From NCBI RefSeq assembly GCF_032118995.1, contig NC_092665.1, positions 3,446,001-3,510,000 of the forward strand: 64,000 bases of DNA, read 5' to 3'. This document shows, piece by piece, positions 1,589-60,608 of this stretch. The notes under the pieces were generated by a model, which was not told where the DNA came from, did no database searches, and saw only the letters and a program-made list of their open reading frames with translations. The position numbers and the translations under genes are program-made. Position 1 is the first letter of the stretch, and every line of letters starts with the position of its first letter. The stretch comes from Asterias amurensis. Taxonomy: Eukaryota > Echinodermata > Asteroidea > Forcipulatida > Asteriidae.

Positions 1589-1774
1589 CATGCATATCAC
1601 CCCCAACTTACTATAAAACAACACGTAGCATATACACACAGTGCGCGCTCGCGGTCAAAATATGGTCGTTTGCAAACCAATAGGGTTAGTACGCACGCGT
1701 GAAAGTAATTAACACAATGGAAAGGGTCTTTATAATAGGCCATTTTCGTCCCCACTTCCTACCTTCGGAGAGTA

Positions 1775-1935
1775 ACTATAAATATAAGAAGGAGACTTGC
1801 GGGTATAACCATGGTGAAATATCTCTTTTGAGGGAGTGTTGCCTCCGAAAAGAGCCGTTGTGGTCTCGATGTTTCGAACAGTGTACTCTGCTCGTCTTCA
1901 GGAGACGCTTGTTTTCTATACCTTCGGAGTTCATC
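1775..1935 (-). mobile_element. Copy A of a repeat with hammerhead-like core and histone-type stem-loop
   Basis: Read on the minus strand, the element has GTCTC, then CTGAAGA, an imperfect hairpin (GAGCAG, six-base loop, CTGTTC), GAAAC, ATC and GAGAC, which pairs back with GTCTC. That is the order of a type I hammerhead ribozyme with a minimal stem III. About 15 bases on follows AACGGCTCTTTTCGGAGGC (1841-1859), close to the histone mRNA 3' stem-loop, then a purine-rich CAAAAGAGA. A TTAA-flanked MITE begins at 1936 and cuts it off. Homologous copies lie at 31543-31640, 31928-32212 and 36057-36420. The homology between copies is seen directly; ribozyme or processing activity is inferred. Confidence 0.6.
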
Positions 1936-29534: not shown

Positions 29535-29905
29535 TTATTGCGTCCAATAATGAAGACGGGTTTTTCAGGCATAAGTGGGGATGATAAATAGCCCACCCTA
29601 TAAAAATAATGGAAGAGTCCTTCCTACTTCTTACTATAAAAATGCAACTTGAAGTGACTAAACAGTGATTCCGTCCAATAATGCAGACAGGTTTTGCAGG
29701 CATAAGTGGGGAAGATAAACAGCCCCCCCCCCTATAAAAATAATGGAAGAGTCCTTCCTACTTCTTACTATAAAAATGCAACTTGAAGTGACTAAACAGT
29801 GATTCCGTCCAATAATGCAGACAGGTTTTGCAGGCATAAGTGGGGAAGATAAACAGCCCCCCCCCCCTATACAAATAATGGAAGAGTCCTTCCTTCTATT
29901 TACTT
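29535..29905 (+). repeat. 134-bp minisatellite in the ZMYND12 3' UTR, about 2.8 copies
   Basis: Units start at GATTCCGTCC (29667, 29801) and share GCATAAGTGGGGAAGATAAA, a run of 8-10 C, and ATGGAAGAGTCCTTCCTACT. The first unit is the most diverged. The array lies between the stop codon and the polyadenylation signal, so it should be transcribed. Confidence 0.85.
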
Positions 29906-30299: not shown

Positions 30300-31540
30300 A
30301 AAAGTATTAAAACTAACTATTTTGCCACAAAATTCGAAGATTGTTTGAAACAATAAAGTAATGATTCTTTCATTTGTAAAATACGGATTCGTTTCACTGG
30401 TGTATTGCTGTTCCTGTGTAAAAAAGTTAAACATAGGCTTAGTTTCAAGTATGTTTTGGCCGCACAAAAAGGCATTAGTTCTTTTCCATCTCTGCGAACG
30501 CAATGCCAACAGCCGATCGAAGGTTAGAAATGTTCACAAGCCGCAAGAGGGCGCTATTTCAGAAGCAAGCGCGTGCACCTTTTTTTCGGGCCAAAAGAAA
30601 AACGCGATCACGTCTTGACTCCCAAGTCGTCGCGGGCGCTTGTCCTTTTGAACTTTTTATCTTTGTGGGCAAGGAAGTGGAAGCAGTGCGATTAAAACCC
30701 TTTCAATTCGTACCTTGATTAAAACTGGTTGTAATTCCAAATTGATTGGAAACCTTTACACATGTTCTAGTGACTAGGGCCCTTTTCAAAACCACGGCCT
30801 CCTGCTTCATCAGATTCCGCTGAGGCACTCATTCCGTTTCCAGATGGGATGAAAGCGCAATGCCCGGCTGTAAGAAGTCAAGGCATATGAAATAATTTAA
30901 TCATTATAATATAAGTCAGGTAGCATTGTCATCCTTACTTCAATCCATCAAGGCTAGTCAATAGACAGGACTTGTCGCGAATTTCAGAATAAAACCGTAT
31001 GCCTGCACCACTTATCCCTAATTTCTCATTTTAATGTTAGGCCCGCCTCAGAGGTAGTTTGTACACAGTTTTCCATGGGAGGGGGGGGGGGACACAGATC
31101 GATCCATGGGGACAGAATCTCCTGCCACATCGGTCTTATAAGTGTTTTACGACTTCAAACTGATGATCACACTAAGTCATAATGGTGTAATTATCCACTA
31201 GACTTGACATGAATTACAATTTTGTTTACATGCAATTATGCATGAGCAATAGGCATTCTATAAAAAAAACATTTCAATTTTCTTTGTGACCTACAAACGT
31301 ACGGCCACTATAATGGTCTACGTTCCCCATCACAGCAACCATTCAAATAATTTTAATTAACCCTGAAGCATTACCGATTTGGAACCGCTTCCCCTTGACG
31401 CTGTTCGGTCGGCTTAAATTGTAGACTTATGGCTATATTGCTATGGGTGTTGCTAAAAGCACAGCCTATGCTATAAATCCAGTGACATCCATAGAGATTC
31501 GTTTTGTCCTGCGTGTGTTTTTATATTATGTTATAAACCA
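30300..31540. other. Intergenic stretch, nothing recognised
   Basis: There is no gene-like frame. A run of 11 G lies at about 31080-31091. No inverted or tandem structure was seen. Confidence 0.5.
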
Positions 31541-31542
31541 CA

Positions 31543-31640
31543 GGGGGAAAACTGATGAACACACTGACCGAAACGTCGAGCAGTACAAACCGGCTCTTAT
31601 CAGAGGCACCACTACTACTTGTACCATGTCACCGCAAACC
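31543..31640 (+). mobile_element. Copy C of the hammerhead-like/histone stem-loop repeat
   Basis: It contains an intact CTGATGA, then GACCGAAACGTCGAGC, and at 31592-31607 GGCTCTTATCAGAGGC followed by ACC. The tail ACCATGTCACCGCAAACC matches the tails of copies A and B. The helix II hairpin present in copies A and B is mostly missing. Confidence 0.55.
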
Positions 31641-31927
31641 TTACTCAGTTTTTTTTTCCCACTGTGTGCATAAGTATGATTGACACTGACGGGAAAAGAA
31701 AATACAATAAATTGATAAGAGACCCATCACAAATCATCAATAATAATACTGAGTGCATCTCCGTCAAAGATAGTATATCGTTTTCAATTATGATTGCATA
31801 ATTGTTTGTTTAGTGACCACCATGAATATCATTGTGCTTTATTCCAACTTCATTATTTTTCTTCAAATACTTAAATATATAACTAAAACAAAGTGTACTT
31901 ACTAAGTGCGTCTTCGTCACTTGCTTT

Positions 31928-32212
31928 CTTAAACAATATTTGAAACTTTGCATGGTGGAGATAAGATATAGAAGAGTTTGCGGTAACACCATGTAATAAC
32001 AATCTCTAAGTGAGTTGGGGTGGTTCTGAAAAGAACCGTTGGGTTTAACTCGACGTTTCGATCAGTATGCTCTGATCGTCTTCGTCAGAGCATACTGATC
32101 GAAACGTCGAGTTAACCCAACGGTTCTTTTCAGAACCACCCCAACTCACTTAGAGATTGTTATTACATGGTGTTACCGCAAACTCTTCTATATCTATATC
32201 TTAAACAATATT
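31928..32212. mobile_element. Copy B: near-perfect palindrome of two hammerhead-like/histone stem-loop units
   Basis: The element is bracketed by 13-bp direct repeats CTTAAACAATATT (31928-31940 and 32200-32212). Its arms of about 110 bp meet tail to tail around 32083. Each arm read outward carries GATCAG-loop-CTGATC, GAAACGTCGAG, then AACGGTTCTTTTCAGAACCA with CCC after it (stem-loop at 32122-32137, and on the minus strand at 32037-32022), and ACATGGTGTTACCGC. The arms differ at very few positions, so the palindrome is young or kept uniform. Confidence 0.8.
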
Positions 32213-32317
32213 CCAATCACTTAATGTGTTACAGGTCGAACCGTATTTTTATTTTAACAGACGATTATACTTTGCTACTTCAAATAAATTAGACACGGGC
32301 ATTCTTTGACTCTTTGA

Positions 32318-32516
32318 AATTTTTGACTCCCATAAATGGCCGAACGTGTTTGTCGACGAGGTTAAACGAAAACCACGCAATTTCGAGGCATATTTGTGTA
32401 GATCATTGTATTCTACTTTTACAACATCTTTCTTACCATACCGATTTTATAACAAACGGTTACAGAACGCTTTTCAAAGACCAACTCGACCGATCCAAGG
32501 CAACGTGTTCCTTTAA
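32318..32516. mobile_element. Half copy of the TTAA palindromic MITE, family 3
   Basis: It matches the right half of the element at 36922-37310, from GACTCCCATAAATGGCCGA to GGCAACGTGTTCCTTTAA, and starts at the palindrome centre. Only one outer end, with its TTAA, is present. Confidence 0.8.
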
Positions 32517-58539: not shown

Positions 58540-59740
58540 AACATAATAATTATACACCTATATACATATACAAACATTTTGTAAAGCACCTTTACGTCAA
58601 GATCAACGCGCTGAAAAGAGCAAAACCAATGGAACTTTCTTTCTTGAAATCGGCGAGTCTTATCGTCAAGTTTACTCCAGCTCAATTCTTTCATCTAAAA
58701 CTATGACATGAATAATAAAATACTCACAATTGATCTTTCGGAAGACAAGTCGAAGTGAAATCTTCAAAATGTTGTTTTATGGAACACACGCGAGATGAAC
58801 GAGACTTTACGTTGAACTGAACCAAGCGTTGAACTGGTGTACTAGTCGAATGTGAACTGAACGAAATCACTGCGCGTATTATATAGCCCATGCCAACAAA
58901 AGACTCGGTTTTTGTTATTGTTTGAAGACACATAGAATTCTTAACCCTTGGGGGCATCATCAGATTGCGCTGAGAGCTTTTTTGTAAATACGCTTTTATA
59001 ATTACATTTTTTTTCCGTGGTTATTTTTCCCCTTGTAAGTTTTGTTGTTTTATCTTTTCGAAGTCTTGTGGGTTTTTTGTTTTGTTTTTACAACAACAAG
59101 ATCAACAAATTATTGTTTGTCTTTTTGTCTTTATCAGTTTGTTTGTATTATTTTCTTTGTTATTTTATTTCCCTTGTCTGTCATAGTTTATTCTATTGCA
59201 TAATTTAATGTAGGCATATGCTTTTAAAATATATTTTAAATATATTTTTACATCACAAAGAGAAAACGATTTAAAGATAGTCTTGTTATTTTATAGCATC
59301 TTGTGATTTAGGAAGTGCACCCTAATTCAAAAGAAGTGATCAAAATCAAATAGGGACTGGAGTCTGCAGTTTTATTTTTGCTCAACCTTTTGTGTCTCCT
59401 TATTCTGTGCCAGAAGGATTGGTTTTGGAGGAAATAAAACAAAACAAATTGTATTATGGTTTGTCTGGTTTCCGATGAAAACAAAAATGCAATCTGGAAA
59501 AGTACGGGGAGTTTCGCCTGACAATAGACTTGGTTACAAGTCTGTGATTGTGGCTGAAACAGCGCCCTCTCTCAGATTAACCTCCATCATTGGCCTATCG
59601 CGAGTGCGTCGGTACAGCAAATCTGCGGGAGAGTTCTGCGTGGCTGGCTGTTGCAGAGAAATAACCTTAGTCTCAGATTTGAAATCAAGTCTAGGCTGAC
59701 AATGACACGAAAACCGTAAAGCTCAACTTCAGAAAAGTTA
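58540..59740. other. Intergenic, nothing recognised
   Basis: T-rich around 58980-59220. A short frame near 59475-59699 has no recognisable features. Confidence 0.45.
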
Positions 59741-59742
59741 GT

Positions 59743-60032
59743 GGGTGCGTTCGTTAATAGCTTCCCCGGGTCGACCCAGGTGTGGGGCGTTTTTTTTTTC
59801 TAGGCCGAACGTGTGCAGATAACAATTATTATATTTAAACGTGTGCAGATATTGTTATATTTATATTCATATTTAAATTTATATTTATACATATTTTTTA
59901 ACGATTCCTGTAAGTGGCGGCTTTCCGCTGTTGGATGTCAATTAATAAATAAAAAAATACCCACGTTCGTCCTGGGAAAAAAAAACGCCACACACCGGGG
60001 GGTCGACCCAGGGAAGCTAAACGAACGCACCC
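59743..60032. mobile_element. GGGTGCGTTCGTT-ended MITE, 290 bp
   Basis: The ends are GGGTGCGTTCGTTAATAGCT with TCCCCGGGTCGACCC, and the complement GGGTCGACCCAGGGAAGCTA with AACGAACGCACCC. Inner arms GGCGTTTTTTTTT and AAAAAAAAACGCC also pair. The same terminal motif lies next to the inverted arms at 8145-8168. Confidence 0.85.
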
Positions 60033-60608
60033 ATTGGTGTGAATTTTGTCGAAAGCATACTTAGCAAGCTGAGTCGTGTCATCTCCAGTGATTCCCCAAT
60101 CTCTGTAATAATAGTGACAATTCAATGTTTTTTTTTCTTCTTATGGTTTGTTCCTAATTGAGTTCCACATAGGATCAGTCCTTGAAGTTTAAGAATAGAG
60201 CAAAAGAAGAAAGACTTAAAGCTGGTTTATTTTTCAACGTTTTTATTTTGGCTTGTAATCTCGTGATCTGATGACGTACACGCACAGCATGCCACAAAAG
60301 ATTTAGTCCTAGCATAGAGAAAGGACAATTCTCTTTGGTCCTAGTAAGAGGTGTTCCGGGCTGTTGGAAACCCTAATTAGTGAACAAAAACCTCATTTTT
60401 ATGCGGGCGTGAACTAATTTGCAAGATAGGGCATGGTCTTGCTGACCAAATTGAGTTCACTTCCATCAGAGAATTCCCAAGACACTTTAGAAGATGCTTT
60501 TTGTGGACTCTTTTTGTGCCCCTGGATACAAAATAGATTTAAGCATGACTGTAACAATAGGCCTAGAACTGTGCTCTCAGCAGACATGGACATCAATAGG
60601 CGACAATT

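Follow-up and report, generated by a model that had tools for sequence, protein, structure and literature searches.

A histone-type 3'-end signal recurs in Penelope-like elements and other transposon families of the Asterias amurensis genome

A signal of the kind that forms histone mRNA 3' ends was found in the terminal units of a Penelope-like element (PLE), in MULE-type transposons and in other repeated families of Asterias amurensis. In contrast to the signal of histone genes, it is repeated genome-wide and does not lie beside a histone ORF. We analyzed a stretch of 64,000 nt (the window) and searched the genome of 491.5 Mb in 23 contigs, one of which (16,427 bases) is evidently mitochondrial; an ND2-like frame reads open under the invertebrate as well as the echinoderm code. 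The results suggest that jumping genes borrow a host pathway tied to DNA replication. Judging from sequence, the most likely reading, at about even odds, is that the transposon signal represents repeated use of host histone 3'-end processing, with the PLE palindrome in the window as the product of a single retrotransposition. A fuller proposal is tentative and on balance slightly doubtful: several unrelated kinds of transposon (PLE, MULE and two more families) would independently have taken over histone-type 3'-end formation, with their mRNAs made, exported and kept only during DNA replication and the signal in the PLE terminal repeat working like the retroviral R region. The first-pass annotation of this DNA had proposed that a mobile RNA ending like a histone mRNA would avoid polyadenylation and be tied to S phase. 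The observation is confirmed, the signal is histone-type and the functional interpretation is partly supported; the annotation overlooked the Penelope-like nature of the repeat and the fuller histone signal borne by unrelated transposons.

A palindromic insertion with a histone-type stem-loop in each arm

The sequence AACGGTTCTTTTCAGAACCA occurs once in each arm of a palindrome (32021-32040 on the minus strand and 32119-32138 on the plus strand), followed directly by CCCC, and was found in 0 of 100 shuffles; the hairpin with CCC after it, as first described, is exact in both arms. The arms are 82 nt long, 100% complementary and 68 nt apart. Sequence and fold give each a 6-bp stem, a 4-nt UUUC loop and adenines flanking both sides. 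The Rfam model RF00032 (Histone3) matches both arms at 36.3 bits (gathering threshold 34, E 6.7e-7). Further support for a histone-type stem-loop is provided by a model trained solely on histone genes of this genome (the host-histone model R1, built from 14 histone 3' ends in alignment A2). The stem-loop resembles that of RF00032 histone 3' UTRs in the 6-bp stem, the two basal G-C pairs, the 4-nt loop and the AAC/ACC flanks.

A 14-bp direct repeat stands at both edges of the palindrome, which is therefore one insertion, 31927-32212; the ends assigned earlier, 31928-32212, agree within one base with this target-site duplication (TSD). The stem-loop is not beside a histone ORF and sits in a transposon unit flanked by the TSD, between a hammerhead-like fold and a presumed ORF start. 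The purine-rich motif placed by the annotation about 12 bases downstream corresponds to TTAGAGAT, which starts 12 nt past the stem in both arms. The features in the window are as follows.

31927-31940, no strand: target-site duplication, left copy, TCTTAAACAATATT, 14 bp
32199-32212, no strand: target-site duplication, right copy, 14 bp
31938-32083, minus strand: PLE-A terminal unit forming the left arm (positions 6-150 of the unit), long form that includes the tail, 94% to the unit
About 31938-31965, minus strand: tail of the left arm, part of the long form
32085-32194, plus strand: PLE-A terminal unit forming the right arm (positions 14-123 of the unit), short form that lacks the tail, 94% to the unit
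32022-32037, minus strand: histone-type stem-loop, left arm (RF00032 match 31998-32042, 36.3 bits; host-histone model 27.6 bits)
32122-32137, plus strand: histone-type stem-loop, right arm (RF00032 match 32117-32161, 36.3 bits; host-histone model 27.6 bits)
32002-32009, minus strand: degenerate histone downstream element TTAGAGAT, left arm, by comparison with host histone genes
32150-32157, plus strand: degenerate histone downstream element TTAGAGAT, right arm, by the same comparison
32049-32083, minus strand, approximate limits: hammerhead-like fold, left arm, from the family-unit fold; stem II covaries; no Rfam hammerhead match
31976-31994, minus strand: presumed ORF start ACATGGTGTTACCGCAAAC, left arm, by analogy with PMC3846280
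32165-32183, plus strand: presumed ORF start ACATGGTGTTACCGCAAAC, right arm, by the same analogy
1769-1904, minus strand: PLE-C unit, stem-loop with one broken pair, downstream element CAAAAGAGAT; 85% to PLE-C, host-histone model 34.4 bits
31557-31645, plus strand: degraded PLE-B unit, histone-type stem-loop broken; 77% to PLE-B, RF00032 17.6 bits, below cut-off

Across the 64 kb, the host-histone model placed the PLE copies of the window in its top four ranks, consistent with histone-type processing: 1812-1861 on the minus strand, within the PLE-C unit, is the best match at 34.4 bits, followed by both arms of the palindrome (27.6) and 31587-31626 on the plus strand (18.1), with the next match at 12.3 bits. 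The plus-strand copy at 31557-31645 has a broken stem pair and no downstream element. A motif had also been reported for a 'copy A', presumably the unit at 1769-1904, the sole other copy found in the window with CAAAAGAGA; the motif is there and the stem has one broken pair.

The repeat has the anatomy of a Penelope-like element

The 17-base core of the hairpin, GTTCTTTTCAGAACCAC, is present in 3,023 genomic copies (1,511+1,512; reversed control 0+0). Loci L001-L060 define a 158-nt unit. Scoring 40 of 1,387 first-look candidates gave 52 matches, the best of them at 100% and the 40 longest at 97-100% identity, indicating that the PLE-A family is recent. The same identities and the TSDs bear out the proposal that the repeat is mobile. 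Of the 46 solitary units extending beyond position 100, 34 terminate within 154-158 and 12 within 111-128, a count in which the long class is favoured by the choice of L031-L060 for full length and from which seven overlapping or duplicate loci had been removed beforehand. In 16 of 19 inverted pairs, one arm stops within 121-127 and its partner within 145-158; the exceptions are two degraded pairs in L004 and the pair in L053, which has outer arms reaching 158 and 126 and an extra piece in between. Second arms of PLE-C end at 141-149 in 17 of 20. A TSD of 9-14 bp flanks 10 of the 19 inverted pairs, and one of at least 9 bp was found for 39 of the 81 PLE-A copies tested, namely 20 inverted-pair arms, one long copy (L041, starting about 309 nt upstream) and 18 others. 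Taken together, the TSDs, the two classes of 3' end and the inverted pairs constitute the anatomy of Penelope-like elements.

Sixteen of these 18 other copies begin at -10 to +8, where a TATA-like box would put the RNA 5' end. A TATA-like word stands 35 nt ahead of the unit in six loci; four of them have TACTTAAG, and L055 and L056 have a variant. Beyond the start of the unit, L049, L043, L031 and L041/L055 carry a further 36, 50, 84 and 139 nt or more of upstream sequence. Read from an ATG at unit position 96, PLE-A has 9 codons before the short end and 21 before the long one; in PLE-B and PLE-C the ATG is at position 92, downstream of the signal. The right arm of the palindrome ends about 30 nt earlier than the tail-bearing arm, as internal reverse transcription primed by both DNA strands would predict. 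Regular asymmetry, one arm with a tail and one without, was also seen in L036, L038, L016, L024, L051, L055 and other inverted pairs. Such asymmetry points to separate internal priming sites for the two target strands.

The units resemble the PLEs of Adineta vaga and Anolis in that inverted terminal units stand head to head in one short TSD, with an optional tail of ~30 nt on one unit, a TATA-like box and two internal start positions. In Adineta vaga Penelope, as PMC3846280 describes it, direct and inverted pLTRs lie within one 9-bp TSD, a 31-bp tail is optional on one pLTR, the inverted pLTR is 37 bp shorter, the opening 12 codons fall within the pLTR (22 where the tail is present), and the initiator is 20 bp from a TATA box. 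For Anolis Poseidon PAc, PMC11167929 reports that reverse transcription starts at two internal sites, which define the tail, and that both strands are cut and extended; the same work saw no strand difference in start site, whereas the arms here differ regularly. The units described here also differ by the histone-type hairpin and downstream element, and the word 'histone' is absent from the main text of PMC3846280 and PMC11167929.

The genome holds 114 GIY-YIG places, including several open frames of 800-951 aa. By eye, among the matches listed, no GIY-YIG ORF end coincided with a PLE unit place and no autonomous element could be tied to the units. Two unit places lie within a few kb of GIY-YIG among the matches listed: one at C6:15846292 (plus strand), 3.4 kb from a minus-strand frame, and one at C1:8065607 (minus strand), ~0.4 kb upstream of a weak match on the same strand (E 0.25). 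A 25-base piece gave zero exact matches in viral contigs.

Other identities of the palindrome were tried and rejected. A chance hairpin is ruled out by the 100 shuffles, the RF00032 score and the genomic copy number against the reversed control. Sub-threshold Rfam microRNA matches over the palindrome are what any long inverted repeat gives, and a MITE or foldback DNA transposon does not fit TSDs that vary from 9 to 14 bp, 3' ends in two classes and copies that extend upstream.

Hairpin and downstream element in three PLE subfamilies

In alignment A1 (54 chosen sequences from PLE-A, PLE-B and PLE-C), all three subfamilies begin with the hammerhead-like fold, followed by the hairpin, an AGAGAT-like element and an ACATGGT-like start. 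Pairing holds in 96.3% of hairpin cells, and 20 of 53 rows show a two-sided change of one pair, from C-G to U-A. The observed number of two-sided-change cells and the score were not reached in any of 500 shuffles; measures that count pairs or pair types were not above 500 shuffles. The covariation is one pair, probably one event. The annotation had read the two stem sides as changed together, and covariation had been proposed as a check: it is found between subfamilies in this single pair. All six stem pairs are intact in 16 of 19 PLE-B, 8 of 13 PLE-C and 18 of 22 PLE-A rows (gaps counted as broken), proportions biased upward because RF00032 score had selected most PLE-B and PLE-C rows, and presence of the exact hairpin had selected L001-L030.

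PLE-A differs from the histone signal in its third stem pair, which is U-A, and in its degenerate downstream element, TTAGAGAT as opposed to AAAAGAGAT in PLE-B and PLE-C. Loss of CAAAA from the element in PLE-A, which was the family with the highest count, argues against histone-type processing, and the U7-type element claimed for the palindrome is found with this part in the related subfamilies and without it in the family of the window. Two older A-like copies (L028, L049) carry CTCAAAAGAGAT or CTCAAAAAGAGAT and young PLE-A carries CATTAGAGAT, so that a change of the element seems to have occurred within the youngest family. AGAGA lies 15 nt past the stem in PLE-B, 14 in PLE-C, 14 in the window and 14-16 in four host genes (one copy each). 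Compared with host histone genes, in which the distance is 14-16 nt, the AAAGAGA element stands 14-15 nt past the stem in PLE-B, PLE-C and the MULE family F1. In the best case, PLE-C is 95% identical to a host H2A 3' end over 39 nt, in favour of histone-type processing.

In the minimum-energy fold of the 5' part of each subfamily unit, stem I is 3 bp, stem II 7 bp and the strands 7 nt long. Five of six tested stem II pairs are changed on both sides, with some cells counting one change many times. The predicted fold resembles PLE and retrozyme hammerhead ribozymes in the CUC/GAG stem I, the 7-bp stem II and the GAAAC-GUC strand. The core motif of the hammerhead is CUGANGA; where it would stand, the PLE-A and PLE-B units have CAGAAGA. 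Rfam hammerhead models gave no match at E up to 10 in window positions 31400-32400 and seven PLE-B/PLE-C loci.

The signal in MULE-type transposons and other repeated families

An RF00032 search of the genome produced 111,810 first-look candidates, the 75 best of which were scored; 74 were above cut-off. Sixty of these 75 were assigned, 51 by examination of the sequence and nine from the C9 array by BLAST comparison: 22 are histone, 16 PLE-B, 5 PLE-C, 1 PLE-A, 8 MULE-type, 4 family F2 and 3 family F3, with L111 unplaced. The other 15 belong by position to the C9 and C12 histone arrays. At least 37 of the 75 best-scored Histone3 matches are transposon-like, and Rfam Histone3 matches in this genome are not readable as histone genes. 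Consistent with histone-type processing, the combination of a GGCTCT hairpin with AAAGAGA occurs at 103+125 genomic places (control 0); among ten matches examined, a single PLE-C form recurs identically in seven, two more differ slightly from it and one is PLE-B-like.

Family F1, found on C3, C4 (two loci), C7, C10, C15 and C17 among the 75 best RF00032 matches, has a MULE domain (PF10551, E 5.1e-10, above cut-off) and open frames of 460-489 aa in L065-L068. Its stem starts 35 nt past the transposase stop and is followed by TTCAAAAAGAGAT. This position, shortly behind the stop codon, is where a functional end would lie. Between F1 and F2 the sole common DNA at E 1e-8 is the signal, 47-51 nt at 87-94%, and in the distant MULE relative L096 the coding DNA is 64% identical (114/177) and the signal 93% (40/43); both comparisons favour histone-type processing. 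AATAAA-like words downstream of the MULE signal count against histone-type processing. MULE-type ORFs with a stem-loop and downstream element soon after the stop were observed at L064-L069, L063 and L096 (C3, C4, C7, C8, C10, C15, C17).

F2 (L061, L073, L076 and L119) is a repeated ORF family with a histone-type end signal. A Pfam search of F2 gave no match and all four loci are on C10; it was rejected as a dispersed DDE-like transposon and may be a local gene family. The F3 loci, L097-L099, lie on C4 (two, 17.05 Mb) and C14 (one, 2.32 Mb). In these, the stem-loop and downstream element stand about 11 nt past a possible stop codon, and the downstream DNA of two of them could, by eye, encode a tyrosine-recombinase-like stretch.

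Scores against the host-histone model for 61 chosen sources were 66 for F3, 63 for L096, 56-61 for F2 and 53-57 for F1. PLE-C scored 44-59 in copies selected by RF00032 and in partner arms in L100/L115, and 21-39 in other copies; PLE-B scored 30-53 (window copy 18) and young PLE-A 31 bits. The histone genes, mostly the model's own training set, scored 50-72. A histone array at C9:17.75-17.92 Mb, with stem-loop matches mostly 5.42 kb apart, can serve as an internal reference.

Possible use of histone 3'-end processing

The stem-loop and downstream element would together be the signal by which the host processes histone pre-mRNA 3' ends, either captured from it or an imitation close to it. Binding of SLBP involves the stem-loop and its flanking adenines (PMC10388802), and U7 pairs with the histone downstream element with the help of SLBP (PMC1924863). 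An SLBP RNA-binding domain is encoded in the genome, consistent with histone-type processing. An RF00066 search of the genome for U7 snRNA gave no match, which does not show absence; an Sm-site pattern was found at 48+39 places (reversed control 74+93), without enrichment, and none of 20 listed places examined fits U7. The negative U7 search counts against the proposed reading, as do the single covarying pair, the score of only 31 bits for PLE-A on the host-histone model, the GIY-YIG ORF ends that do not coincide with listed unit places and the negative Rfam hammerhead search.

In the proposed pLTR module, a TATA-like box would be followed in turn by the RNA 5' end, the hammerhead-like fold, the stem-loop, the downstream element, the ORF start and the tail, with reverse-transcription start sites at the ORF start. 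The palindrome would be two pLTRs head to head, both strands of the cut target having primed internal reverse transcription. Genomic copies extend beyond the histone cleavage point, which counts against histone-type processing and means that the RNA that was copied was not cut at that point. In a complete element, however, the signal would also follow the ORF, in the 3' pLTR, and there SLBP, the U7 snRNP and CPSF73 may cut the transcript to yield an mRNA that lacks poly(A) and is favoured during S phase. The retroviral R region holds a poly(A) signal whose 5' copy is passed over, and the signal copy near the PLE RNA 5' end would be passed over likewise. With processing placed in the 3' pLTR, the apparent conflict with copies that pass the hairpin is removed; copies do not show the position of an RNA end. 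The proposed analogy with R lies in a 3'-processing signal in the terminal repeat whose 3' copy is used and whose promoter-near copy is ignored; it differs in that histone-type cleavage would replace polyadenylation and that reverse transcription begins internally. The window family would be a derivative that has kept the hairpin and not the full downstream element; with its U-A pair and degraded element it may be processed weakly or may only bind SLBP.

The hairpin lies just upstream of the internal start sites, and insertion of the Anolis PLE needs an RNA stretch at the pLTR-ORF junction (PMC11167929). The hairpin could accordingly be a PLE-internal recognition element for the element's own reverse transcriptase, with convergent histone likeness and no involvement of histone factors, and its persistence in young PLE-A, where the downstream element decayed, fits this. 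We nevertheless regard such a role as unlikely, as it leaves unexplained the downstream element in PLE-B and PLE-C, the close match to the host H2A end and the same signal after the MULE transposase stop. That last position, the place of a working end, also speaks against a signal passively captured from histone genes and carried without use. Passive capture would require several captures (PLE, MULE F1, F2 and F3), and distant MULE relatives keep the signal better than coding DNA; it would account for the high identity to host histone ends and for the decay of single copies evident in the stem counts above, and we consider it distinctly improbable. Very little credence is given to the idea that the hairpin is conserved because it codes for the N-terminal end of the PLE protein. 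All three units do give similar peptides across the hairpin in frame 2, and the Anolis PLE ORF begins at hammerhead stem II (PMC11167929), but a stop breaks this frame in PLE-A, the MULE signal is left unexplained, and the 9/21 codons from the ATG after the signal in PLE-A come near the 12/22 of the rotifer PLE (PMC3846280).

If histone-type processing of these elements is true, transposons with a histone-type mRNA end would be an exception, their expression would be tied to S phase, and SLBP and U7 would have in them a set of natural substrates other than histone mRNAs. It would further account for TE transcripts that escape RNA-seq based on poly(A) selection. Among the matches listed from open-licence literature (title and abstract opening), none concerned a histone-type end of a transposon.

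Other repeats in the window

An imperfect inverted repeat of ~296 bp at 59740-60035 is MITE-like, and MIR7533 matches both of its strands far below cut-off. A tandem repeat at 29537-29904 has a unit of about 131-135 nt in about 2.7 copies.
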